In this document: positions 3,940 through 48,436 of the stretch, one piece after another
Layout of the letters: each line of letters starts with the position of its first letter
Numbering within the stretch: position 1 is the stretch's first letter
Origin: Alphaproteobacteria bacterium
GTDB taxonomy: Bacteria; Pseudomonadota; Alphaproteobacteria; Paracaedibacterales; VGCI01
Direction of reading: 5' to 3'
Assembly: GCA_016870095.1 (NCBI GenBank)
Contig: VGCI01000004.1
Location: forward strand, 62,001-126,000
DNA: 64,000 nt
Notes under the pieces: model-generated
Seen by the model: only the letters and a program-made list of their open reading frames with translations
The model's database searches: none
Told to the model about the DNA's origin: nothing
Made by a program: the position numbers and the translations under genes

Positions 3940-4028
3940 TTGCCCCTCTTATCAGTTTTTTTTAAAAGTAGGACCAGATTAACGTTAAAACCCTTTTTTT
4001 TCCAGTGAAAACACCCTATTTTATATAT

Positions 4029-4353
4029 TGTGAGGTAACTCACTATGGCGATAAACGATTTATGGAATAAGCGTTTCGGACCCGGGGGCGGTACCCGGCG
4101 CCTCCACCACGTATTATGGGGGTGAAATAGGATCGACGTGCGTAGTAAAGATATGTCTTTTGCCCGGCATTGTACCACCGTTATCGGGCTGATTTAATAG
4201 GTGCAAACAATAATTCTGCATCTCGTGTCGCAGTTAACCTAAACCGTTCAACGGTTGCGGTTACAGCTGCTGCTGCTTAATGTTAGCGAAAGCTAATATA
4301 AAGTGGTAAAAGACTAGCAGTCCGGGGGGCACTGGGCAACAGAAGCCCCCCAC
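4029..4353 (+). ncRNA. ssrA: Circularly permuted two-piece tmRNA
   Basis: The acceptor piece comes first: a hairpin GTGAG/CTCAC at 4030-4043, then a T-arm (stem 4082-4086 with 4094-4098), the acceptor strand CGCCTCC at 4099-4105 and the encoded ACCA ending at 4109. After only eight bases (4110-4117) the coding piece starts with GGGGGTG (4118-4124), which pairs at all seven positions with CGCCTCC, allowing G-U. The conserved GGATCGACG follows, then a pseudoknot-like segment (GCCCG/CGGGC), the tag reading frame at 4203-4280 and a 3' stem GGGGGGC (4324-4330)/GCCCCCC (4345-4351). tmRNA rescues stalled ribosomes and adds a degradation tag. The permuted order is characteristic of alphaproteobacteria. 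The outer ends are estimates. Confidence 0.93.
4203..4280 (+). other. tmRNA tag reading frame (25 residues)
   Basis: The resume codon is probably GCA at 4203, as in other tmRNAs that begin the tag with alanine. The frame encodes a 25-residue tag starting ANNNSASR, with AVNLNRSTVAV in the middle and ending TAAAA before TAA at 4278-4280. The small hydrophobic end suits ClpX recognition, and the polar ANNN start resembles the AND/ANN start bound by SspB in this class. The tag is longer than many (often 8-15 residues). The assignment of the first codon is inferred from family pattern. Confidence 0.85.
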
Positions 4354-4412
4354 TAAATTTATGAAAAGTTTGACCCATGTCATTCTACGTTCAAATTAAG
4401 GAATCAAATACT

Positions 4413-9405: not shown

Positions 9406-10461
9406 TTAACAAAATGAAGAAGAACTATTCTTCATTAGAAGTCGCACTTCGGGATCATGGGAGATACCCTTTCCGTTACCCCGCGTTATCCATGTGGTAC
9501 GCCCAAGAACAAATGTATGATTCAAACGTGTTGGCTCAATTTCTTCACGACGTAGCGAAAAAGTCAAATGGACCTCCGATCCTTCACCTATATAGAAATA
9601 GGTTAAATCTCGTAAAGCCATATACTCCTGAGCAGTTTCCTGTTGAAAACGAATGAATTGATTATAGGTTAGAGGAGGAATATGAACAGTAATTCCCGCA
9701 GTCTGATGCCATGAGCGCCTTCCCAGAACTGTCGACTTTCCTAATATGTGATGTTGAGCCGTTTCTCGAACACCAATTCTTGTCCAATCTTTTTCTGGAG
9801 CAACTTGCCAGGCTCCTTGATATTGAGACACCCGAATGGGCATATCAAAATATGACCGAAGTAAGCGCTGTAATCCGATCAAGGATCGGGGACGTTTCCA
9901 AAATGCCGGCGCAAAGGACAAAAGGGATTGATCTGAAACAGCTAAATGATTGCGAATTGAGTCAGATTCAATACCCACTAAGTCCAAGAATGCTTTGCCG
10001 ACGGGAGTTTCGTCTGGTCGGACTTGAGCAATACCCAAAACTATTTTTTTGCGCATACGATGCCAAAAACTCGCCAAGCGATGATTAAAAATATCGAGGA
10101 AATCTTTTAAGCTGGTATCCTTATGACGCAATCGTTCAATCAATAATTCCGTGTAGGGCGTCGGAAGGGGACCTTGAATTCCACCCAATCCAATGAAATT
10201 TACGGATAATACAGGAGGTCTGCTTGTGTCTGAAGGCGACAGGCTTTGTATGTCCGCACCCGATGGAGATAATGTCACGCGCGATTGAATTGAAACCGCT
10301 TCTTTTAAAGGATCAGAACCCTCTCCCAAGGGAATGGCTTCAGGACGCATTTTCTCCAACAAACGAATTGCTTGATGAAAATCAAATTCGTAAGGCGTTT
10401 TTAGAACTTGCTCTTCTAAAGGAGTATTTGTTCTCCGGGTAACGGGTGCCATCTCATCCAC
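9406..10461 (-). CDS. tssG: Type VI secretion baseplate subunit TssG
   Basis: A 351-residue TssG (ImpH/VasB) protein. With TssF, TssE and TssK it forms wedges of the T6SS baseplate on the cytoplasmic side. Family signals are the N-terminal YEFDFHQAIRLLE, the FIGLGGIQGPLPTPYTELL motif, the FLDIFNHRLASFWHRM segment and SLIGLQRLLRSYFDMPIRV. The C-terminal LGRTTWITR resembles the LG.STWL end of the family. The start overlaps the end of tssF by about 46 bases; a second ATG at 10452 would shorten the overlap. Other T6SS genes are absent from the window. Confidence 0.92.
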   Translation of the reverse strand: MDEMAPVTRRTNTPLEEQVLKTPYEFDFHQAIRLLEKMRPEAIPLGEGSDPLKEAVSIQSRVTLSPSGADIQSLSPSDTSRPPVLSVNFIGLGGIQGPLPTPYTELLIERLRHKDTSLKDFLDIFNHRLASFWHRMRKKIVLGIAQVRPDETPVGKAFLDLVGIESDSIRNHLAVSDQSLLSFAPAFWKRPRSLIGLQRLLRSYFDMPIRVSQYQGAWQVAPEKDWTRIGVRETAQHHILGKSTVLGRRSWHQTAGITVHIPPLTYNQFIRFQQETAQEYMALRDLTYFYIGEGSEVHLTFSLRREEIEPTRLNHTFVLGRTTWITRGNGKGISHDPEVRLLMKNSSSSFC

Positions 10462-12293
10462 TCACCTTGACGTCGCGTGCTGTGTAAAACAACTTCAACA
10501 AACGAATTTATAGACACTTGTAAAGCAAAGAAATGTCGCAAAACAGAGCTCATTAAAAAGACACTACTGCCTGCAAGTTCATGCTCATTCATTGTTAAGG
10601 AAACCTCTAAACCGGGAATAAATCCTCGCCACGCTTCCTCACCAATTCGACGAACGGTCGATTTACAAGATAGTTTTTGTAAAGCATCTATTTCACCGTG
10701 ACGATAGATAGATTCTGGCCCCGCATAAAGACGTAGCATTTCTTTTAAGACGTTCAAAGAAGCATCCCCTTGCGTTAAAGAAAGGTGGTTAACGGACAAA
10801 TGAGAAATTAGGCGCCATAAAGTTTCGCCATCTCTTGGAGCATGGACTTGAGAAACGGGTTTACCCAAACAAACAATTTTAGCTATGGGAGCCCTATCCT
10901 CTATTTCCATTAAAGTCCCGGCGGTCATTTGTTCCGCCAAATATCTATTTGTACACAATGTTTCACCATAAATAGTCTGCACTGAAGGGAGAGTGGGGTT
11001 GAAATCCAAATCAACAAAAGTTAAAAACATTTCCGTTCCCGGTATATCTTTTTGCAAAGATGCGCTTCTTCTGCCAATCCAAAATGAGTTGTGCTGTGTC
11101 TCTGAAGTCAGTTTTTCCGTTTTATGATTAAAGGAAAAGTAAGGTTGAAACTCAACGGGATCTGGTTGGTCTTCTAAAGTTGCCATCACTCGATTAATGG
11201 AATAAATTTCCGTCGTTCTCTCCCGACGCGCGTCAGGTGTTAATCGATACTCCGTTTGTCGGTGATCCAGACGGATTGGATCCGTTGTTCGTCGAAATAA
11301 GTTGACCATGGGCGTACATCCCAGTAAGAAATTTCGAGGATGTAACTTTAACTTTCCAATCACTTCAGCATCTTCAATAGCAATAAGTAAATCCATCTCA
11401 TTGCTCGCCCCTTGCGTCGATATATTTTCAACTGAAAAAAACAAGTATTTTTCAGGAAAATGAAAATATTCTTGAATTAATTGATAAGCTGGCTGGGCAT
11501 GACCAGGATGAGGTAAGATCAAGTGATCTTCATCAAATCCTACAGATTGTAAGGAAGGCATCGGTAAATAAGACGCTGTTTTTTGATCAGTGGATACTAA
11601 GACATGTGGATTCGTTTGCGCAAACAAAGCACTATACATTTCAAATGTTAATAGGCGATCCCCGTTCAAATGGAAGGTTAGTCGTTTTAGATCGAGGTCA
11701 GAAAAAAGAAGCCCTTCTTCGGTTTGAAGACGTAAACGTAAATACCAAGGGACCTTGGGACCATATCCTTTAATGTCATAGACATCCCGCGAAACAAAAT
11801 CGACATGAGTGACAGTAATAGGCCACAAGGTAATGTCGTAGGCCGTCCGAAATCGACAGGCAACACCTTCCTCAGCGTAAGTAAATAATAAAGTTTCCTT
11901 GGGAATAGGGAATCCAGTAGTCAGTGTCCCTTTTGTGGCATCTGCTTGAAAATGAGCTATTGCCATGGCGGGAATTGGATTGATCAATTGAGGATAAAGA
12001 ACGCCTAACAGAGCTGATGAAATTTGAGGCAATCGATCATCGATTTCTTGACTCAACCGAGCCGTTAGAAACGCAAAAGATTCAAGAAGTCTTTCCATGT
12101 GAGGATCCGGAGATTCCTCCCAATTCAACCCCAGGCGATGCGCAATCTTTGGGTGCTTATTTGCAAACAATCCCCCCGCTTGACGCAAGTAGGTCAATTC
12201 CCGATGGTAATAGTTTAGAAATGGATCCTGACTCCCTCGAATCACTGTAACGTCCCTAAAGTAAAGTATTTTAATTAAATTATAGACAGACAT
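10416..12293 (-). CDS. tssF: Type VI secretion baseplate subunit TssF
   Basis: A 625-residue TssF (ImpG/VasA). The N-terminus contains the family signature: FLNYYHRELTYLRQAGG, FANKHPKIAHRLGL, PDPHMERLLESFAFLTARL. Later blocks such as HLSVNHLSLTQGDASLNVLKEMLRLY are also typical. TssF dimers pair with TssG in the baseplate wedge. The ATG at 12293 lacks a clear ribosome site and adds residues not usual in the family. GTG at 12245, with AGGGA upstream, would start VIRGSQDPFLNYY and may be the real start. Only tssF and tssG are present here, so the rest of the system must be elsewhere or lost. Confidence 0.92.
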   Translation of the reverse strand: MSVYNLIKILYFRDVTVIRGSQDPFLNYYHRELTYLRQAGGLFANKHPKIAHRLGLNWEESPDPHMERLLESFAFLTARLSQEIDDRLPQISSALLGVLYPQLINPIPAMAIAHFQADATKGTLTTGFPIPKETLLFTYAEEGVACRFRTAYDITLWPITVTHVDFVSRDVYDIKGYGPKVPWYLRLRLQTEEGLLFSDLDLKRLTFHLNGDRLLTFEMYSALFAQTNPHVLVSTDQKTASYLPMPSLQSVGFDEDHLILPHPGHAQPAYQLIQEYFHFPEKYLFFSVENISTQGASNEMDLLIAIEDAEVIGKLKLHPRNFLLGCTPMVNLFRRTTDPIRLDHRQTEYRLTPDARRERTTEIYSINRVMATLEDQPDPVEFQPYFSFNHKTEKLTSETQHNSFWIGRRSASLQKDIPGTEMFLTFVDLDFNPTLPSVQTIYGETLCTNRYLAEQMTAGTLMEIEDRAPIAKIVCLGKPVSQVHAPRDGETLWRLISHLSVNHLSLTQGDASLNVLKEMLRLYAGPESIYRHGEIDALQKLSCKSTVRRIGEEAWRGFIPGLEVSLTMNEHELAGSSVFLMSSVLRHFFALQVSINSFVEVVLHSTRRQGEWMRWHPLPGEQILL

Positions 12294-12428: not shown

Positions 12429-13115
12429 TTACTTTTTCCACAAACTATTTTTTATAGAGTGAATGAGTTCATTATGTGATTCTAACTCCTCAGATGTGGG
12501 CTCATGAGGACGAGCTTCTTTGTGAGTACGAAGAATGTTCTTTAAATCATCCCGTGTCACAACTTTGGTTTGAAGGGGAGCTCCCGCAAATGTAAACGCT
12601 GTCTGACGTCCTCCCAGAAGTTCTAAATAGACTTTAGCTAATAATTCACAGTCAATTAAAGCACCATGCTTTGTTCGACCTGAAAGGTCAATTTGGAACC
12701 GACGACACAATGCATCTAAACTCGCAGGCGATCCTGGAAATTTTGCGCGAGCAATTTTTAAAGTATCGGTAGCCCGTTGGGGGGGGAAATGAGGATGATT
12801 TAACCGCCCAAATTCAGCATTTAAGAATTTTAAATCAAAAGCAGCATTATGAATAATCAATTGATCATCGCCAACAAAAGATAAAAACTCATCTACAATT
12901 TTAGAAAAAACGGGAAAAGGTTTAAGGAATTCTGTTTTGATGCCACTAATTGCAGACGCTTCGGCGGGGACATCCCGTTCCGGATTTATATAGCTATGGT
13001 ACACACGGCCCGTTGGGAGATAATTAATCAATTCCACACAACCAATTTCGATAATTCGATGGCCTTCCGCAGGATCTAATCCGGTAGTCTCAGTGTCTAA
13101 AACAATTTCACGCAT
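12429..13115 (-). CDS. dnaQ: DNA polymerase III epsilon subunit (3'-5' proofreading exonuclease)
   Basis: A 228-residue DEDDh exonuclease that proofreads for the replicative polymerase. Exo I is VLDTETTGLDP with the two acidic metal ligands. Exo II is IIHNAAFDLKFL. Exo III carries the histidine and aspartate in TKHGALIDCELLAKVYLEL. A short C-terminal tail fits binding to the polymerase alpha subunit. It overlaps coaE by eight bases, and the dnaQ-coaE pair beside rho and hem genes close to the origin is a recurrent alphaproteobacterial arrangement. Confidence 0.95.
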   Translation of the reverse strand: MREIVLDTETTGLDPAEGHRIIEIGCVELINYLPTGRVYHSYINPERDVPAEASAISGIKTEFLKPFPVFSKIVDEFLSFVGDDQLIIHNAAFDLKFLNAEFGRLNHPHFPPQRATDTLKIARAKFPGSPASLDALCRRFQIDLSGRTKHGALIDCELLAKVYLELLGGRQTAFTFAGAPLQTKVVTRDDLKNILRTHKEARPHEPTSEELESHNELIHSIKNSLWKK

Positions 13116-13716
13116 AGTCGGTCCGTTTTAAGGATAAGGCTTCAAGGATGGTTTTTAATTGACGAAAAGTATGTCCTTTAGATAAACCGGATTGAATTTC
13201 AAAAGTCGCTTTAGCTTTCTTTTGAGGCAAAGTCCAATGTCGATTTAAAACATGATTAAGGTTTTCCAAATTTATGCCTGGTCTCTTTTGAAGACGTTGT
13301 TGCTGTATAAATGAGGGAGAATAAATCAAAACAGTGTATGTACATAAAGAGTCCCAACCCACCTCAAATAACAAAGGAACATCCACAACACACCAATGAA
13401 TACCCAGTCGACGCATCTTTTCTAAAAATTCTATCATTTTGGAAAAAGCCCGCTCATGAATGAGATGTTCTAAACTTGTTAAGCACTTTTCATCCTGAAA
13501 AGCCTTAGAGCGCAAAAGGGATCGATCAACTGTCCCCCCCACTATGACATCGGGATATAAATCAGTAATTTCTTGAATAAGCTGCAAGTCCTCCCCTAAC
13601 AAATCCCGAACAGCCTGATCAGCATCCCATACGGGAGCGTTATAAATAAGACGCAAAGCCCGAGTAACTGTAGATTTCCCCATCGCCATCGATCCTGTCA
13701 ATCCCAGCACGATCAT
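13108..13716 (-). CDS. coaE: Dephospho-CoA kinase
   Basis: The enzyme performs the last step of coenzyme A synthesis, phosphorylating dephospho-CoA. The P-loop is GLTGSMAMGKST directly after the start, followed by PVWDADQAVRDLL and the VVDVPLLFEVGWD motif, all typical. I choose ATG 13716 because AAGGAG lies just upstream and the protein then begins MIVLGLTGS as in relatives. The longer frame to 13755 adds 13 residues with no support. It sits between rho and dnaQ on the same strand. Confidence 0.95.
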   Translation of the reverse strand: MIVLGLTGSMAMGKSTVTRALRLIYNAPVWDADQAVRDLLGEDLQLIQEITDLYPDVIVGGTVDRSLLRSKAFQDEKCLTSLEHLIHERAFSKMIEFLEKMRRLGIHWCVVDVPLLFEVGWDSLCTYTVLIYSPSFIQQQRLQKRPGINLENLNHVLNRHWTLPQKKAKATFEIQSGLSKGHTFRQLKTILEALSLKRTDYA

Positions 13717-13811
13717 GAGATCTCCTTTTTCAAAAGGTACGATTTTCCCTAACAAACCTTCTTGAAGACGTCTTTTCTCGTCTCGGTTAAAGCATAAGTC
13801 TTGGATTGACT

Positions 13812-15083
13812 TTACGAATTCATAGACTCAAAAAAGTCTGAATTGCTCTTACTGTATTTCAGCTTATCATGCAAGAATTCCATGGCTTCGACGGTTCCCA
13901 TTGGGTTGAGAATACGACGCAAAACCCACATCTTTGACAGGGATGCTTTGTCAGTAATAAGAAGTTCTTCCTTACGTGTCCCCGACTTCGTAATATCGAT
14001 GGATGGGAAAGTACGCTTATCGGATAACTTACGATCCAAAATAATTTCCGCGTTACCAGTGCCTTTAAATTCTTCAAAGATAACTTCATCCATACGAGAT
14101 CCTGTATCTACCAATGCCGTAGCAATAATAGTCAACGATCCGCCTTCTTCGATGTTACGTGCAGCCCCAAAAAATCTTTTAGGACGTTGCAAGGCATTGG
14201 CATCCACACCACCTGTTAAAACTTTACCTGAAGAGGGAACTACCGTGTTATAAGCCCGCGCAAGTCGTGTAATGGAATCTAGCAAAATGACGACATCACG
14301 CTTTTGTTCAACTAAACGTTTTGCTTTTTCAATGACCATCTCGGCAACCTGCACATGTCGTGAAGCCGGTTCATCAAAGGTTGAAGAAACCACTTCACCC
14401 TTAACAGAGCGAGCCATGTCGGTCACTTCCTCTGGACGTTCATCAATCAATAGAACAATAAGATAAACTTCTGGATGATTAATGGCAACGGAGTGAGCAA
14501 TGTTTTGCAACATGACGGTTTTTCCTGTACGAGGCGGCGCAACGATCAAGGCGCGCTGACCTTTTCCAAGAGGGGAAACAAGATCAATAACACGTTGAGT
14601 AAAATCTTTACCATTTGAGACGTTGCCCTCACCTTCAACTTCAAGAATCAAACGCTTCTCGGGGTAAAGAGGTGTAAGGTTGTCAAAATTAATTCGGTAT
14701 TTAATATTATCCGGGGGTTCAAAATTGATGGTATTAACTTTTAACAAAGCGAAATAACGTTCGCTATCTTTCGGGGCTCGAATTTGCCCCTCAACGGTAT
14801 CCCCTGTCCGCAAACCAAATCTGCGAACTTGGCTCGGTGATACATAAATATCATCGGGCCCTGGAAGATAGTTAGACTCAGGTGACCGTAAAAATCCAAA
14901 ACCATCTTGGAGGATTTCAACGACACCATCTCCAAATATGGCTACATCTTTTTCTGCCAATTTCTTTAATATGGCAAACATTAAATCCTGTTTGCGTAAG
15001 GCGCTGGCGTTTTCAATTTCTAATTCTTCTGCTTGCGCCAATAGCTCTGCGGGCGGTTTGCGCTTAAGTTCCTGTAATTGCAT
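13812..15083 (-). CDS. rho: Transcription termination factor Rho
   Basis: This 423-residue hexameric RNA helicase ends transcription at Rho sites. It has the N-terminal Rho_N helix bundle, the cold-shock-like RNA-binding domain ([22 protein letters not shown]), the Walker A site APPRTGKT near residue 180, Walker [16 protein letters not shown], the Q-loop and the R-loop [19 protein letters not shown]. Length and order are standard. Few strong intrinsic terminators were seen in the window, which fits a reliance on Rho, but that is inference. Confidence 0.98.
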
Positions 15084-15100
15084 GATTTTCCTTGATAAAA

Positions 15101-15544
15101 CTAAAACGGTTTGACAATAACGCTTATGATAATAACAATCAATAAAAGTGTAGGCACCTCATTAATAAGACGGAAAAAGGGATCGGTGCGTGTGCACACC
15201 CCTGTGGCTAGTTGCTTTCGCCAGAAATTTAACAAATGATGAAAAATAACCAGGCCAATAACGCAGGTCAACTTGAGATGAAACCACCCAAATGACCAGA
15301 CATTTTGGACTATAACAAGAAAAATTCCTGATGCCAAGGATAAAAGCATAGAAGGAACCATAATTATCCTATATAAGCGATATTCCATAACCTGAAACAA
15401 TTGTGCTGCTTCCGATTTTGAATCAACATTAACGTGATAGACAAACAATCTAGGAAGATAAAAAAGGCCAGCCATCCACGCAATTATGGCAATGAGATGA
15501 ACGACTTTTATCCATAAATAAAACCCGAGAAGCCAATCATACAT
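15101..15544 (-). CDS. hemJ: Protoporphyrinogen IX oxidase HemJ
   Basis: A 147-residue membrane protein with four hydrophobic helices. It matches HemJ, the haem b-containing oxidase that converts protoporphyrinogen IX to protoporphyrin IX. Conserved features are the N-terminal [25 protein letters not shown] with its histidines and the [14 protein letters not shown] segment. Its place directly between hemH and rho, next to the two other late haem genes, supports the call. The hemH stop is five bases upstream. Confidence 0.92.
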
Positions 15545-15549
15545 AGCGC

Positions 15550-16530
15550 TTACCCTTTATTTAAATTTGATACAACTAACCCCGCAAGCGACTTGATATA
15601 ATCAGAATGAATACCCAAAGTTGGAACTCTTCCATAGAAGGGTACCCCAACAGACTCCGCGAGATACCGATAATCTATATCTAACTCTACAAGGGTTTCA
15701 GAATGTTCAGACACAAAAGCTATGGGCACAACAATAACGGGAACTTTTTCCGCACCAGCACGCTTTAGTTCCTGTTCGGTGGAGGGCTCTAACCATTTTA
15801 AGGGCCCAACTTTGCTTTGATAACATATGACTCCGTCAACAGAGGAAGGTAATTTTTTTAAAATAGACTTCACTGTTTGATGAATTTGAGCTTCGTAAGG
15901 GTCTCCGGCATCAATAACTTTTTGAGGGAGCCCGTGAGCAGAAAACAAAATACGAGGATGACCATAGGCCGATGCTTTTTCGATCCAGGGCCGCAATAAA
16001 TCTGTGTGGGCCTTGATAAAAGAGACCTCATCAGGATAACTGTTAATTTGACATGTGGGGATGCTTAGCCCTTGCCGCTTTGATTCTTTTTCCCATTCCA
16101 GAAAACTCGATCCGGTTGTTGTGATGGAAAATTGAGGATAGAGGGGCAGTAAAATGACTTGTGTTGGTTGAAAAGATTTAACCTTAGCAATAACTTCTGA
16201 AGCGCGGGGGTGCCAATACCTCATAGCCACAAAAACTTCCACCTCTTGATCTGGAATTTTCTTTTTCAGTAGCTGAGCAAGGTGATGAGCTTGAGATTTT
16301 GTATTTAGAAAAAGAGGAGACGCCCCCCCCATTTGCTGATAGATTTTGCGAGCCTTTTTACTGCGCGTTCGAGAAATTATTTCCGCCAAAAGAGGCCGCA
16401 ACGGCCAAGGAAGGGAAATGATGGCGGGGTCAGAAAATAAATTTCGTAAAAAAGGGCGCACAGCCTCAAGGGTGTCGGGGCCCCCTAAGTTCATCAAAAC
16501 AACAGCAAGACGATTCTGGCGGATAGTCAT
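15550..16530 (-). CDS. hemH: Ferrochelatase
   Basis: A 326-residue enzyme that inserts ferrous iron into protoporphyrin IX at the inner membrane. Family motifs are VLMNLGGPDTLEAVRPFLRNLFSDP near the N-terminus, the metal-site histidine in ILFSAHGLPQKVI and the VPIAFVSEHSETLVELD block with the catalytic histidine and glutamate. No C-terminal membrane extension is present. It lies three bases after hemE and just before hemJ, so substrate handover between neighbours is likely encoded in one operon. Confidence 0.97.
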   Translation of the reverse strand: MTIRQNRLAVVLMNLGGPDTLEAVRPFLRNLFSDPAIISLPWPLRPLLAEIISRTRSKKARKIYQQMGGASPLFLNTKSQAHHLAQLLKKKIPDQEVEVFVAMRYWHPRASEVIAKVKSFQPTQVILLPLYPQFSITTTGSSFLEWEKESKRQGLSIPTCQINSYPDEVSFIKAHTDLLRPWIEKASAYGHPRILFSAHGLPQKVIDAGDPYEAQIHQTVKSILKKLPSSVDGVICYQSKVGPLKWLEPSTEQELKRAGAEKVPVIVVPIAFVSEHSETLVELDIDYRYLAESVGVPFYGRVPTLGIHSDYIKSLAGLVVSNLNKG

Positions 16531-16533
16531 TCT

Positions 16534-17562
16534 TTACAACTCTCTTCCCCTAACAAGTTCGACAAGTTCCCTCACGTGATCCACGGGTGTTTGGGGCAAA
16601 ATTCCGTGGCCAAGATTGAAAACAAAAGACGTTCCCTGAAATGCATCCAGCAGCTCGCGTACACTATCTCTCACTTTCTTTCCTCCTTCGACCAAAATTC
16701 CTGGACTTAAGTTTCCCTGAACAGGAGCAATTTTTTGGATCTGATTTTTCATTACCGAAACAGGAACCCCCTCATCAACCCCTAAAGCCAAATAGGGAAA
16801 GTCCTTAACAATCTTTGAATAAATGGGGGAAACACCTCGTCCATAATAGATAATGGGTAGGTTTGGGTAAAGACCCCGGATGCGAGAAATGATGCGACGA
16901 ATGGGATCAACGATCCATTCATCTTGATTTTCAAGAGGGACTGCCTTTGCCCAAGAATCAAAAATTTGTACAGCATCTGCACCAGCTTCAATTTGAGCCA
17001 GGAGAAAAGTTCCAATAGATTCTTCCAATAATGCCATGGTTTGGATAAACAGCGGACTTTGGGTATAGAGATGATTTTTTATTCGATCAAATGTTGCTGA
17101 TTTTCCTCCCTCAAGCATATAGGTAGCAATAGTCCAAGGACTCCCTGAGAAGCCAATTACGGCCTTAGTTGACGGTAAGGACTTGCGAACATTACGAAGA
17201 ATGTTAAGAGGTGTAGATAACGCTTTGAGCAAATCAACATCTTGTGCATTTTCAAAAAATGTTGAGGCGTCAATGGGTTCTAAAATGGGTCCCTTCTTTT
17301 CAACAATATTTACCCTTTGTCCCAATACGTGCGGAATTACAAGGATGTCACTAAATAAAATTGCAGCATCAAAATTGAATCTTTCAATGGGTTGAAGAGT
17401 AATTTTTGTGGCAAGTTCTTCATGAAAACATAATTCCATAAAGCTGGGAACTGTTTCGCGAATGGCTCTGTACTCAGGTAAATATCTTCCTGCTTGACGC
17501 ATGAGCCATATGGGGGGATATAAGTTCACATTCCCCTGAAGGGTATTTATAATCAGATTCAT
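16534..17562 (-). CDS. hemE: Uroporphyrinogen decarboxylase
   Basis: The 342-residue enzyme decarboxylates uroporphyrinogen III to coproporphyrinogen III. Signature one is PPIWLMRQAGRYLPEYR near residues 17-33. The AAILFSDILVIPHVLG block, GFSGSPWTIATYMLEGG and the NLGHGILPQTPVDHV C-terminal motif are also present. It is the first gene of the leftward hem-rho run. In alphaproteobacteria such as Caulobacter and Rickettsia the chromosomal origin lies next to hemE, which is important for reading the next intergenic region. Confidence 0.98.
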   Translation of the reverse strand: MNLIINTLQGNVNLYPPIWLMRQAGRYLPEYRAIRETVPSFMELCFHEELATKITLQPIERFNFDAAILFSDILVIPHVLGQRVNIVEKKGPILEPIDASTFFENAQDVDLLKALSTPLNILRNVRKSLPSTKAVIGFSGSPWTIATYMLEGGKSATFDRIKNHLYTQSPLFIQTMALLEESIGTFLLAQIEAGADAVQIFDSWAKAVPLENQDEWIVDPIRRIISRIRGLYPNLPIIYYGRGVSPIYSKIVKDFPYLALGVDEGVPVSVMKNQIQKIAPVQGNLSPGILVEGGKKVRDSVRELLDAFQGTSFVFNLGHGILPQTPVDHVRELVELVRGREL

Positions 17563-18054
17563 GGTTACTACATAATCACAATTGTATTAATTTATAAAGG
17601 TAGTTGTAGTTGTAGTAGATATATGTGAATTATGGGGATTCAATTCTTTAGGAAAATTGTCCACAGATTCTTTAATTATAAACAGTTCTTCCCTAATTGA
17701 GGGGATAATTCTTTTATCTTATTGGAAGATTTGTAAAATAGTACTTCTCTACCCGGGGATAATTTGGGGGATAAATTTTGGATTTAGTTTCAACAAGAGG
17801 GGTGTGGAAAGATAATCCACAGGTGGTTAACTTTTGTAAAGCCGTCAAAGTTATCCCGACTTATTAGCCGAAAAACGAAATTTAGGTTAGGCTATAAACT
17901 GTTCTTCATTTTGTACAAGAATTCTTTTCGTTTCATTCACAAGTTTATCCACAGCTCTCTTCGGGTAATGGATTAAGGAAGACGAAGAAGTTTTTAAAAC
18001 GATGTTTTTGTAATTTCTTGACACTTATCCTGGTTTCCCTTACTTTTTAAATAC
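17563..18054. other. Putative chromosomal replication origin (oriC)
   Basis: The longest gene-free stretch in the window lies directly upstream of hemE, where Caulobacter and Rickettsia have oriC. It contains TTATCCACA (17945-17953, the consensus DnaA box), TTGTCCACA (17657-17665), TAATCCACA (17813-17821) and weaker forms such as TTATCCCGA (17851-17859) and TGTGGAAAG (17803-17811). GGGGATAATT recurs at 17701-17710 and 17755-17764, with a near copy at 17767-17777, and AT-rich DNA flanks them. Genes to the left read mostly minus and genes to the right mostly plus, as expected for two forks leaving this point. No TTAA-N7-TTAA CtrA site was found. The function is inferred. Confidence 0.75.
18018..18046 (+). 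promoter_or_regulatory. Candidate promoter of znuA
   Basis: A perfect TTGACA (18018-18023) is followed after 17 bases by TACTTT (18041-18046), a weak -10. Transcription would begin near 18053, at the start codon of znuA at 18055, giving a leaderless or nearly leaderless mRNA. No ribosome site precedes that ATG, which fits. The -10 match is only three of six. Confidence 0.4.
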
Positions 18055-18993
18055 ATGCTGAATTATATTTATTTCTTTTTTTCTTTCCTCATTGGATTGT
18101 CTATTGCCACCAAAGCAAGTGTACCGCAGGTTTTGGTTACAATTAAACCTATCCATTCTTTGGTTGCGGGCGTTATGGAGGGGATGAATTCTCCGACGCT
18201 TTTGATGAGTGGGGAGAGCTCTCCCCATACTCAAAATTTAAAACCATCCGAGGTAAGACAAATTAATGCCGCTCAAGTTGTTGTTTGGGTAGGACCTTCT
18301 TATGAGACAGCCTTGCAGCGTGTGATAGAGACACCAAAAGTTGGCCAACGTATCATCACACTTCAAGATAAGCCAGGAATGAAATTATATCCGATGCGAC
18401 AGGGAGGACTGTGGGGAAGTCACGTTCACGGGTCTGAAGAAGATCATTCTTGTGGTCATCAACATAACGACCAAGATTTAGACGGACATCTTTGGCTTGA
18501 TCCTGATAATGCCAAAGCTATTGTTATTGCCATTGCTCAAGAACTAAGTGTGCTTGATCCAAAACATCAGAAAGATTATCACACGAATGCACAAAATGTT
18601 ATCAGTCGGTTAGAAGATTTAGATCAAAATCTGAAGGAAATCTTAATGTCCGTTAAAAACAAACCCTATGTGGTTTATCATGATGGGACACAATATTTCG
18701 ATCGCCATTACAAAACAAGAGCAATAGGTGTGCTTATTGGAGATAGTCATTATGGACTTAATGCTCAACACTTCCTGCAAGTTTCCGAGTATATCCGAGT
18801 GCAAAAAGTGAGTTGTGTTTTTACAGAACCGCAATTTCCGACAGATATTATTAGCTCCCTTATGGAAAAGACGGGTACACGAATAGAAACTTTGGACTAT
18901 TTGGGCGTTGGTTTAGAAGCAGATAGAGATGCTTATTTTGTGATGATGCAAAACCTGGCGAGTGCTTTTTTAAAAGGGCTTTCAGATTCTTGA
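18055..18993 (+). CDS. znuA: Zinc ABC transporter substrate-binding protein
   Basis: A 312-residue periplasmic cluster A-I binding protein that delivers zinc to the ZnuBC importer. A signal peptide (LNYIYFFFSFLIGLSIATKA) is followed by VLVTIKPIHSLVAGVM with the first metal histidine. A His/Asp-rich loop, HVHGSEEDHSCGHQHNDQD at about residues 123-141, precedes DGHLWLDPDNAK. A third histidine site is in KPYVVYHDGTQYF, and the fourth ligand region is VFTEPQFP. The His loop favours zinc over manganese. Its partners znuC and znuB are 3.5 kb downstream, separated by prfB, ubiE and dut. Confidence 0.93.
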   Translation: MLNYIYFFFSFLIGLSIATKASVPQVLVTIKPIHSLVAGVMEGMNSPTLLMSGESSPHTQNLKPSEVRQINAAQVVVWVGPSYETALQRVIETPKVGQRIITLQDKPGMKLYPMRQGGLWGSHVHGSEEDHSCGHQHNDQDLDGHLWLDPDNAKAIVIAIAQELSVLDPKHQKDYHTNAQNVISRLEDLDQNLKEILMSVKNKPYVVYHDGTQYFDRHYKTRAIGVLIGDSHYGLNAQHFLQVSEYIRVQKVSCVFTEPQFPTDIISSLMEKTGTRIETLDYLGVGLEADRDAYFVMMQNLASAFLKGLSDS

Positions 18994-19348: not shown

Positions 19349-20465
19349 TTACTTTTCTTGATCCATCCCCCCAATGCGCATAGCAAGAGCTGCCTCTATA
19401 AAACAATCAATATCTCCATCCAGCACACCCGAAGCATTACCTCGTTCAACGCCTGTACGAGTATCTTTTACCATTTGATAGGGCTGTAAAACATAAGAAC
19501 GAATTTGATGCCCCCAACCGATATCAGTCTTTCCAGCACTTTGAGCGGTTAGTTTTTCTTCTTTCTTTCGCAATTCTAGTTCGTATAATCGGGCTTTTAA
19601 CATCGAATAGGCTTGAGCTCTATTCCGGTGTTGGGAGCGATCATTTTGACATTGGACAACAATGTTAGTCGGAATGTGAGTAATGCGAATGGCGCTTTCT
19701 GTTTTATTGACGTGTTGCCCCCCCGCACCGGAAGCCCGATAGGTATCAATTCGCAAATCCTTATCTTCGATGGCAATATCTATGGAATCATCAATGACAG
19801 GGTAAACCCAAACAGAAGCAAAACTTGTATGACGCCTGGCGTTAGAGTCAAAAGGAGAAATACGAACCAATCGATGAACACCACTTTCTGTTTTTAGCCA
19901 CCCATAGGCCTGATGTCCCATGATTTTTAATGTAATGGACTTTATCCCGGCTTCTTCTCCAGGACTTTCTTCTAAAATTTCTAGCTTATAGCCTTTTGAT
20001 TCTGCCCAACGACTATAAAGGCGAGAGAGCATGGAGGCCCAATCTTGGGCTTCTGTCCCTCCCGCACCAGCATTAATTTCTAAGAAGCAGTCATTCTTAT
20101 CCGCCTCTCCCGATAACAATGTTTCTAACTGGAGGCGCGTTGATATTTTCTCAAGTTTTTCCAGTTGGGTTTCAGCTTCGACGATAATGGCTGTGTCCTC
20201 TTCGGATTCTCCTAAGGCAATGAGCTCCACATTATCTGTTAATTGGGTTTGGAGGTCCTGGATACGATTTATGGACGTTTGTAGGGCGTCGCGCTCTTTA
20301 AGGATCTTTTGCGCCAAAGCTTGATTGTTCCATAAATCTGGATCTTCAGCTTGGGTATTTAAGGATTCGAGTTGGCTTAAGGCTTTGTCCCAGTCAAAGA
20401 TGCCTCCGCAACAATGAAAGACTTTGGTCAATTTGTTTAACGATGGATTCAATTTCTGCTCGCAT
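19349..20465 (-). CDS. prfB: Peptide chain release factor 2, made through a +1 frameshift
   Basis: RF2 releases nascent chains at UGA and UAA. The gene starts at ATG 20465 (MRAEIESIVKQIDQSLSLL) after an AGGAG site, and reads 23 codons to CTT TGA. Shifting +1 at CTTTGAC continues with DWDKALSQLESLN and gives about 371 residues, the family length. The GGQ motif is in SGAGGQHVNKTESA, and the UGA-specific SPF tripeptide is in VRISPFDSNARR. A plain reading frame beginning at 20452 (NPSLNKLTK) is an artefact of not modelling the shift. The gene is transcribed toward the hypothetical protein at 18996. Confidence 0.95.
20393..20412 (-). promoter_or_regulatory. Programmed +1 frameshift site of prfB
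   Basis: On the minus strand the sequence reads CGGAGGCATCTTTGAC. The slippery CTT (20399-20397) is followed by an in-frame TGA (20396-20394), with the next base C, a poor termination context. A Shine-Dalgarno-like GGAGG precedes it and would promote slippage. This is the classic autoregulation: low RF2 slows termination at the UGA and favours the shift, making more RF2. Confidence 0.9.
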
Positions 20466-34375: not shown

Positions 34376-36343
34376 TCAAGAATATCCATTGGCTTTTTCT
34401 GGCTTCAGGATGGGTTCATGAAGTTGATTCACATTTTCACGACGCCATGCCTCAAACATGAGAATGGTCCACAAAGGTTCTTTGTGATCTTTATATCCGG
34501 CAAGATGATTTTTCCAAAGTTGACGAATTGGCAACGGATCAAATGTTTCTTTTAAGGTCGATGGGGAGAGAAGATCTTCGGCCCAATCTCGCAGAGAACC
34601 GCGCAACCAAACATCAATAGGTAAGGCAAAACCAGCTTTGGGGCGATCAATCAACTCTTGAGGAACATGCTTATAAAGAAGTTGGCGCAAAGGCCATTTT
34701 CCGGATTTACCTTTAATCTTGAAGGACTGTGGTTGGGCCCAGGCCCATTCGACGACTCGGTGATCTAACAAAGGAACTCGCGCCTCTAAACTAACGGCCA
34801 TACTTGCCCGATCCACCTTAGTTAAAATATCATCTGGCAGATAGGTAATGGTGTCCAGTGCCTGCATTTGGGAGACAAATTCAGAAAGCTGAGGGGAAAA
34901 GCGCGTGATATTTGGTGCATAGTTGTGCGGAATGGCCAGAGAGGGTTCTGGCCAATAACTAATCAAAGAATCATATAAGGCTTCCGGAGATTTGGCTTTT
35001 AAAGATCGTGCCAATTTATGGATTTTGTGCCCCAGTTTTGGAGGCCTCTTTGATGCAGGAATAAGATAACTTAAGAGATCCCAACTCGAGGGTGGAATCA
35101 TCGCTAATAGGTTTGCAAGATCTCCACAAAAGGGTACCCGGGATGATATTTTTTGCAAAGTATTGCCCCACATATATCGCGTGTAACCCCCAAAGATCTC
35201 ATCTCCTCCATCACCTGATAGGGCAACTGTGACAGATTGACGAGCCAGTTGAGAAACAAGAAATGTTGGTATTTGAGACGAATCGGCAAAGGGCTCATCA
35301 TATAAGTGAGGCAATCTTGGGATGACATCAAGGATTCGACGGGGGGTCACGAGTAAGGCTGTATGATCTGTGCCTAAATGTTCGGCTACGGCTCTCGCAT
35401 AAGGGGCTTCATTGTAATCCTTCTCATCAAAACCAATGGTAAATGTTTGAATCGGGCGAGAACTATTTTTTTGAGCAATTGCGGTCACAAGCGAAGAATC
35501 GATACCGCCGGATAGAAAAGTTCCTAAGGGAACATCAGAAATCATACGGCGAGTGACGGCATCATTCAAGAGTAACTCAAGCTCATTTAAAGCTGATTCT
35601 GGCGAATGATCCGGTGTGGCCTTCAGGGATGAAATACCTTTTGTGATAACTTCTTCTAAAGTCCAAAATGGTTTTTGTGTCACGAGGCCATCCGGCGTGC
35701 GGCATAAAATTGTTCCTGGAGGTAGTTTGTGTACTCCTTCATATATGGATAATGGGGAGGGAACATACGCATGCTTAAGGTAAGCGGCAAGAGCTTGATA
35801 ATTCAATTTAGGATGAAAGTCAGGATAGGCTTGTAAAGCTTTGAGTTCAGAACCAAATAAGAATGTTGTTCCCGATTTTCCCCAATAAAGAGGTTTAATT
35901 CCTAAACGATCCCGTACCAAATATAAATTTAATTCTTTTCTATCCCATAAAGCAAAAGCAAACATACCAATAAATTTCTTTACGGCTTCTTCAATACCCC
36001 ATGCCGCAATAGCTTCTAACATCACTTCTGTATCTGAATGTCCTCGAAAAACAACACCCCGTGCCTCTAAGAGAGGGCGGAGTTCTGCATTACTATAGGT
36101 TTCTCCATTATAAACCATGACCCATCTTTCACAGTGAGAAATCATAGGTTGATGCCCGGCGGGGGATAGGTCTTGGATTGCAAGACGGCGGTGACCTAAG
36201 GCTAACCCAGCAGGGCCATCGACCCATGTTCCTTCATCATCAGGACCTCGATAAACAATAGCAGTAGTCATATCGGATACATGGCGCATAAGCGTCATAG
36301 CGTTCGTTAAACCCGGCGTAATAAAACCAGCAATTCCACACAT
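34376..36343 (-). CDS. asnB: Asparagine synthase, glutamine-hydrolysing (first paralogue)
   Basis: A 655-residue two-domain enzyme. Cys2 of MCGIAGF is the glutaminase nucleophile, with RGPDDEGTW and LALGHRRLAIQDLS. The synthetase half shows the PP-loop FLSGGIDSSLV and ALSGDGGDEIFGGYTRY. In polysaccharide clusters such enzymes are thought to amidate uronic acids or related sugars rather than make free asparagine. Its neighbours, a CapD-like protein and an O-antigen ligase, favour that reading. A second copy lies at 46.5-48.4 kb. Confidence 0.92.
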   Translation of the reverse strand: MCGIAGFITPGLTNAMTLMRHVSDMTTAIVYRGPDDEGTWVDGPAGLALGHRRLAIQDLSPAGHQPMISHCERWVMVYNGETYSNAELRPLLEARGVVFRGHSDTEVMLEAIAAWGIEEAVKKFIGMFAFALWDRKELNLYLVRDRLGIKPLYWGKSGTTFLFGSELKALQAYPDFHPKLNYQALAAYLKHAYVPSPLSIYEGVHKLPPGTILCRTPDGLVTQKPFWTLEEVITKGISSLKATPDHSPESALNELELLLNDAVTRRMISDVPLGTFLSGGIDSSLVTAIAQKNSSRPIQTFTIGFDEKDYNEAPYARAVAEHLGTDHTALLVTPRRILDVIPRLPHLYDEPFADSSQIPTFLVSQLARQSVTVALSGDGGDEIFGGYTRYMWGNTLQKISSRVPFCGDLANLLAMIPPSSWDLLSYLIPASKRPPKLGHKIHKLARSLKAKSPEALYDSLISYWPEPSLAIPHNYAPNITRFSPQLSEFVSQMQALDTITYLPDDILTKVDRASMAVSLEARVPLLDHRVVEWAWAQPQSFKIKGKSGKWPLRQLLYKHVPQELIDRPKAGFALPIDVWLRGSLRDWAEDLLSPSTLKETFDPLPIRQLWKNHLAGYKDHKEPLWTILMFEAWRRENVNQLHEPILKPEKANGYS

Positions 36344-46498: not shown

Positions 46499-48436
46499 AT
46501 GTGTGGTATAACGGGATTTTGGTCTTTTTCAGATCATCTATCGGATTTTTCTCTGGATCGCATCGTTCTAGAAATGGCAAATCAGTTAATAAGTCGGGGT
46601 CCTGACTCTCAAGGCGTGTGGATTGATAAAAATGCACAGCTTGCCCTCGGACACCGTCGGCTTTCAATAGTTGATTTATCTGAAGCCGGACATCAACCGA
46701 TGATTTCAGCTTCGGGGCGCTTTATCATAACATATAATGGTGAAGTTTATAATGCATCTGATTTGCGAGAAAATCTTTTAGCAAAAGGATATTTTTTTCG
46801 AGGAACTTCAGATACAGAAGTTATTTTAGCAGCTTGTGAAGCTTACGGAATTGAAAAAGCTACGCAGCAATTAATAGGGATGTTCGCCTTTGCTATATGG
46901 GATGCAAAATATCATAAACTACACTTAATTCGGGATCGTTTGGGAGTTAAACCCTTATACTGGGGATTCAATCAAGAGACATTATTCTTTGGGTCACAAA
47001 TCAAGAGTTTCTCTCCTCATCCCCTATGGCGCCCTGAAATTAATCGGGATACCCTAGCTAATTATTTTAGATTTTCTTATATTCCTGGTCCTTCATCAAT
47101 ATACAAAGGCATTCAAAAATTATCTCCCGGGTGTATCGTAACCATTGAAGGAAAGAATAAGGTAACGGTCACATCTTACTGGAATATGAGCGAGGTCATT
47201 CAACAGGCAAAAGAACAAAAATACAACCGAACTCCTTTAGAGTGGATCGATGAGCTTGATCATCTTTTGAAAGATGCGGTGAAGCGATGTATGGTTTCGG
47301 ATGTGCCGATTGGGGCTTTTCTTTCCGGAGGAATTGACAGCTCAACCGTAGTGGCCTTGATGCAATATCAAAACCCTCAACCGGTTCAAACCTTTAGTAT
47401 TGGATTTGACGAAGTCGGCTATAACGAGGCACCTCATGCGGCGGCTATAGCGCGCCATTTAGGAACTCAGCACCATGAACTGTATTTGAAATCTTCAGAA
47501 GCTTTAGACATTATTCCCACCATTCCGGAGTGGTGTGATGAACCTTTTGCTGATTCTTCGCAAATTCCCACATATCTTGTTTCCCGTTTGGCCCAACGTC
47601 ATTTAAAAGTTTGTTTATCTGGCGATGGGGGAGATGAATTCTTTGGAGGATATGGCAGGTATTTTCAAACAAATCGTCTCTGGAATCGGCTTTCTCCAAT
47701 TCCTTTTAATATACGGAAAATGATAGCCGGGGGAATTCAGGGTTTGTCGCCTGATACATGGAATTTTTTAGGAAATATAATCCCGGGAAAAAGACCTCTT
47801 GTGGGGGATAAGGCTCATAAACTTGCGCGCCTTCTTTCTTGTCCAGACCGGAGGGCTTTCTATCTCAATCTTATGAGTCTGTGGGATGATCCTGAATCTC
47901 TGCTGATAGATAAAAATATCCATTCTCAAGAGGGTCTGCCTCTTCCTTGGCTAACAAATCAAACATATTCCTTAAAAAGTTTTTTTGAAGAAATGCAGTA
48001 CATCGATAGTCTTACCTATTTACCTGACGATATTTTGTCGAAAGTTGATTATGCAAGTATGGCGGTAAGTTTAGAAAGTCGTGTTCCGCTTTTAGATCAT
48101 CGTGTTGTAGAATTTTCTTGGAGAATTCCTCAAGAACTTAAATTTAAACACCCTGAAGGAAAATGGATTTTACGGCAAGTCTTGAAAAAATATGTTCCAG
48201 AATGGCTAACGGAACGTCCTAAAATGGGTTTTGGGATCCCTATTGATCAATGGTTGAGAGAGGCTTTACGGCCATGGGCGGAGGCGCTTCTTTGTGAATC
48301 TTCACTCAAAGACTCAGGTTTAAATCCTGAACCCATTCGTCAACGTTGGGAAGAGCATTTATCTGGAAATCGGAATTGGCACTATTCCTTGTGGCCAGTG
48401 CTAATGTATCAAGCTTGGCGTGAGAATTACATATAA
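46499..48436 (+). CDS. asnB: Asparagine synthase, glutamine-hydrolysing (second paralogue)
   Basis: A 645-residue enzyme with the same layout as the protein ending at 34376. It opens MCGITGF with the nucleophilic cysteine, then RGPDSQGVW and LALGHRRLSIVDLSEAGHQP. The synthetase half has FLSGGIDSSTVV and LSGDGGDEFFGGYGRYF. As the last gene of a glycosyltransferase operon it most probably modifies a sugar of the polysaccharide. A strong hairpin follows the stop. Confidence 0.92.
   Translation: MCGITGFWSFSDHLSDFSLDRIVLEMANQLISRGPDSQGVWIDKNAQLALGHRRLSIVDLSEAGHQPMISASGRFIITYNGEVYNASDLRENLLAKGYFFRGTSDTEVILAACEAYGIEKATQQLIGMFAFAIWDAKYHKLHLIRDRLGVKPLYWGFNQETLFFGSQIKSFSPHPLWRPEINRDTLANYFRFSYIPGPSSIYKGIQKLSPGCIVTIEGKNKVTVTSYWNMSEVIQQAKEQKYNRTPLEWIDELDHLLKDAVKRCMVSDVPIGAFLSGGIDSSTVVALMQYQNPQPVQTFSIGFDEVGYNEAPHAAAIARHLGTQHHELYLKSSEALDIIPTIPEWCDEPFADSSQIPTYLVSRLAQRHLKVCLSGDGGDEFFGGYGRYFQTNRLWNRLSPIPFNIRKMIAGGIQGLSPDTWNFLGNIIPGKRPLVGDKAHKLARLLSCPDRRAFYLNLMSLWDDPESLLIDKNIHSQEGLPLPWLTNQTYSLKSFFEEMQYIDSLTYLPDDILSKVDYASMAVSLESRVPLLDHRVVEFSWRIPQELKFKHPEGKWILRQVLKKYVPEWLTERPKMGFGIPIDQWLREALRPWAEALLCESSLKDSGLNPEPIRQRWEEHLSGNRNWHYSLWPVLMYQAWRENYI

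Follow-up and report, generated by a model that had tools for sequence, protein, structure and literature searches.

The window, the whole 64,000-nucleotide stretch of DNA analysed here (part of the 163-kb contig C4), belongs to a protist-dwelling alphaproteobacterium related to Candidatus Finniella, which the NCBI taxonomy places in the Holosporales (Candidatus Paracaedibacteraceae). A 492-bp gap separates hemE from a divergently transcribed znuA-like gene, and the features in and around this gap are as follows.

12429-16530, minus strand: dnaQ-like gene, coaE, rho, hemJ (UPF0093) and hemH, a run on the hemE side (Pfam)
16534-17562, minus strand: hemE, uroporphyrinogen decarboxylase (PF01208, E = 4.6e-96)
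17563-18054, no strand: intergenic region, almost certainly oriC (DnaA boxes, contig skew extremes, conserved module, relatives)
17571-17598, minus strand: AT-rich stretch beyond the triplets, likely the first DNA unwound (sequence; AT-rich block conserved in relatives)
17580-17677 (C4:79580-79677), minus strand: conserved origin module (profile R1, E = 9.4e-12; second-ranked site genome-wide, 0.04)
17600-17618, minus strand: array of triplets CTACTACAACTACAACTAC resembling DnaA-trios (on the complementary strand, 3'-GAT-5' in four of the six; putative function after PMC8287927)
17624-17632, minus strand: weak DnaA box TAATTCACA, separated from the triplets by 5 bp; position conserved in relatives
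17633-17641, minus strand: abutting degenerate DnaA-box-like site GAATCCCCA, three mismatches (TAATCCCCA or GTATCCACA in relatives)
17657-17665, plus strand: DnaA box TTGTCCACA, one mismatch, about -100 (-103) from hemE; position conserved
17700-17708, minus strand: putative low-affinity DnaA-box-like site TTATCCCCT (first GGGGATAA repeat)
17754-17762, minus strand: putative low-affinity DnaA-box-like site TTATCCCCG (second GGGGATAA repeat)
17766-17774, minus strand: putative low-affinity DnaA-box-like site TTATCCCCC (third GGGGATAA repeat)
17813-17821, plus strand: DnaA box TAATCCACA, one mismatch, about -259 from hemE
17851-17859, plus strand: weak DnaA box TTATCCCGA (similar GGATAACTT in two same-genus relatives)
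17945-17953, plus strand: consensus DnaA box TTATCCACA, about -391 from hemE; position conserved
18055-18993, plus strand: znuA-like gene, periplasmic zinc-binding protein, on the other flank (PF01297, E = 2.4e-55)

The first-pass annotation had described a flip in gene direction at this gap. On the left the flip is clear, with hemE, hemH, hemJ, rho, coaE and the dnaQ-like gene all on the minus strand, but on the right it is only a tendency, since a release-factor gene (19349-20452) and a large part of the 33-44 kb region are minus-strand exceptions. The AT content of the interval (67.5%) is above the background of about 59% in the window, and a search for parS found none within the window. 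The window also carries an alphaproteobacterial (permuted) tmRNA gene (3990-4354, plus strand; Rfam RF01849, 236.7 bits), the type VI secretion genes tssG and tssF near the proposed origin (9406-12293, minus strand), and two asparagine-synthase-like genes with glutamine amidotransferase domains (34376-36343 and 46499-48436), which lie ~10 kb apart near polysaccharide genes.

The proposal of an origin had been based in part on one exact DnaA box, two boxes with one mismatch and three GGGGATAA repeats. All of these were recovered, the boxes at 17945, 17657 and 17813 (each on the plus strand) and the repeats at 17701, 17755 and 17767. We read the repeats from their sequence as TTATCCCC on the minus strand, i.e. 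as low-affinity DnaA-box-like sites. Since GGGGATAA is over-represented across the whole window (12 occurrences versus 2.7 expected), only its clustering in the interval is special. The three boxes with at most one mismatch compare with a shuffle mean of 0.22 (at least three in 1 of 300 shuffles), and the 12 boxes with at most two mismatches compare with a mean of 2.2 (equalled in none of 300). Genome-wide there are 591 sites with at most one mismatch across 1.8 Mb, so a three-box cluster is uncommon yet by itself not decisive. A better cluster near another gene had been named as one observation that would refute the proposal; across the ~40% of the genome that was sampled, three boxes did not occur together in any other 300-bp stretch. 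The presence of only a single consensus box does count against an oriC.

A skew minimum had also been expected here. Indeed, the cumulative GC skew of the contig reaches its minimum at window position 15840 and the AT skew its maximum at 17239, both within 2 kb of the interval. No comparable minus-to-plus V was seen in the other contigs sampled (10-kb samples, ~40% of the genome; the assembly has 15 contigs with masked stretches, and parts of C3, C5, C6 and C15 are N). On C5, which was sampled more fully, the skew rises nearly throughout. The first part of that contig (C5:1-40000; L096, L252, L253) has an unusually strong positive GC skew (~+0.17 in the first 10 kb), long plus-strand frames and a contig end, and is possibly an acquired element. 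The 20-kb flanks of the module or origin site were examined in ten relatives, and a minus-to-plus sign flip was found in nine, including the f8 genomes G023 and G031; in the tenth (G009) the skew rises from +0.022 to +0.139 with no sign change. The near-complete genome G019 likewise switches skew across the hemE site.

Comparison with about 40 relatives served to place the likely DNA-opening element. In the 600 bp upstream of hemE, families f1, f5, f6 and f7 carry 4-13 boxes with at most one mismatch (three in this genome), and in several families boxes recur at distances from hemE near -390, -240 and -100 (here -391, -259 and -103). Families f3 and f8 and the examined f2 genome have none or one box upstream of hemE. 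The last 135 bp, when aligned, contain a TGTGGATAA-type box, tandem ATCCCCAT/ATTCACA-like sites, a run of CTA triplets and an AT-rich end. The same-genus relative G001 (L020, L160) has boxes upstream of hemE but not the CTA triplet run, and therefore the module is variable in detail; longer triplet runs occur in some relatives, e.g. G025.

From 16 relatives, with this genome held out, we built a profile (R1) of this module, which gave one strong site in the genome, at 17580-17677. A second match, at C5:94302, was rejected as an origin because there is no skew V there. Upstream of hemE, R1 also matches loci of Rhodospirillales, Micavibrio and Ehrlichia, more weakly. In three families hemE is not the neighbour of the module, which was found between aroE and mipZ in f8 (L157, L168), between aroE and a Bax1-I gene in f3 (L162), and beside a TauE-like gene in f2 (L161). 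Some of these matches are much weaker than others (E about 1e-5 in f8 genomes G023, G027, G031 and G010, versus a best of 1.8e-13 in G016).

These displaced copies bear on whether the conserved elements are simply a divergent hemE/znuA promoter or regulatory region, with the skew change following gene direction only. The conserved block does lie within 120 bp of hemE and probably holds the hemE promoter, and gene direction also switches at the interval. However, the same block sits beside mipZ, Bax1-I or TauE-like genes in f8, f3 and f2, both f8 genomes tested (G023, G031) show a skew flip across it, the far-side flanking gene varies among relatives, and the sites themselves are DnaA boxes. 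We therefore consider a promoter-only explanation very improbable; the module was observed to track the origin in relatives, not the hemE promoter.

Searches of the genome for dnaA (PF00308, PF08299) returned no match in an assembly with some masked stretches, and dnaA is present in the same-genus relatives G002 and G003. A concatenated gyrB, dnaN, dnaA, mlaA and atpA query gave only one GyrB-like match and two weak matches in the genome. The GyrB-like match, on C5 (659 aa, 43% identical to the GyrB of relatives), is better read as ParE. We do not claim a loss of dnaA, since the other genes of its block (gyrB, dnaN, mlaA and atpA) were likewise not seen and the assembly is partly N. Because any cell needs gyrB and dnaN, we treat the missing dnaA as a masking or assembly gap. 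Separately, a weak match to the DnaA query at C3:192501-192929 (L060) lies within a frame of 236 aa that may encode an Hda/HdaA-like regulator.

The masked parts of C3, C5, C6 and C15, together with the unseen gyrB-recF-dnaN-dnaA block of same-genus relatives, would leave room for a true origin elsewhere, e.g. near dnaA in sequence that is masked or missing, with the interval acting as a DnaA-titrating or secondary box cluster. This is even less probable than the promoter explanation, because the skew switches at the interval, as it does in relatives at the homologous site, and because the held-out R1 match at the interval is unique. Among those relatives is the near-complete G019, in which hemE and dnaA would be about 340 kb apart, provided that its 2.47-Mb contig is closed. 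Box counts alone would be weak evidence, but independent tests agree: the skew, the held-out profile, the recurrent boxes and the module found off hemE in other families. Therefore, the earlier proposal of an oriC beside hemE is upheld, and we are highly confident that 17563-18054 is a DnaA-dependent chromosomal oriC.

The opening element of this oriC probably adjoins hemE, where the arrangement resembles the basal unwinding system of DnaA boxes, spacer and DnaA-trios (PMC8287927). On the hemE strand the triplets read CTA CTA CAA CTA CAA CTA, opposite 3'-GAT GAT GTT GAT GTT GAT-5', and their in-frame CTA count of four was reached in 0.05% of shuffles. In the DnaA-trio system a DnaA box is expected within 16 bp of the triplets; here the sites at 5 and 14 bp are box-like, with two and three mismatches, respectively. 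By the published search rule a trio array has three contiguous middle-A (NAN) triplets, although deviant trios are allowed for (PMC8287927). Here there are two contiguous middle-A triplets before GTT interruptions, and so the array falls outside strict DnaA-trio membership. Tandem box-like sites, a spacer of 5 bp (14 bp when counted to the outer box), triplets of GAT type and AT-rich DNA are thus shared with the basal system, whereas the two-triplet run followed by GTT and the weakness of the adjacent boxes differ from it; opening at the present array is a prediction.

From this layout we infer an order of events for replication at 17563-18054. DnaA would bind the consensus box at 17945 and the near-consensus boxes at 17813 and 17657, and then spread in the direction of hemE over the low-affinity TTATCCCC-type sites. 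Starting at the tandem weak boxes (17624-17641), it would load onto the adjoining triplets of GAT type (17600-17618), and the AT-rich DNA at 17571-17598 would be opened. The helicase would be loaded there, after which forks would depart bidirectionally.

A limited literature search turned up no mapped origin for the genera of this group, and one may exist elsewhere in the literature. A precise, testable origin is now proposed for this obligate-symbiont group, and the comparison suggests a short module as an origin marker even where neighbouring genes have changed.

The annotation had found no CtrA sites, and we likewise found none with at most one mismatch in the interval. The genome does encode a CtrA protein (C1:304533, 399 bits versus a cut-off of 350), and the lack of sites extends across the order: in 17 origin regions a count of motifs, as distinct from a binding assay, gave 14 CtrA sites with at most one mismatch versus about 17 expected from shuffles. 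CtrA control of replication in these bacteria thus becomes a testable question. Tentatively, and at somewhat less than even odds, we suggest that the origin core in this order is a ~100-bp box/triplet module kept while flanking genes (hemE, aroE, mipZ, znuA and others) were swapped, that CtrA, though kept, does not control the origin directly, and that the genus of the window may have a deviant triplet array.

Among known systems, hemE-linked origins are described for Caulobacter crescentus (Cori), Rickettsia, Wolbachia, Ehrlichia and Anaplasma (PMC1914354), and the hemE flank reported earlier for this locus fits that group. In contrast to Cori, the interval has no CtrA site (at most one mismatch) and no IHF site at strict consensus, despite an encoded ctrA. 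CtrA sites are not obligatory in the group, being absent from the origins of Ehrlichia ruminantium and one Wolbachia strain (PMC1914354). The other flank, COG1806 or COG1253, is variable in the group, with a phage protein in Neorickettsia (PMC1914354), and here it is the znuA-like gene. In common with hemE-linked origins (PMC1914354), the interval lies between genes and beside hemE, has a higher AT content than the genome, carries DnaA boxes and is placed at a skew shift. An oriC beside hemE is ordinary as a kind; new here are the reading of the GGGGATAA repeats as low-affinity DnaA boxes, the chance-level number of CtrA sites despite an encoded CtrA, and the likely opening site next to hemE.
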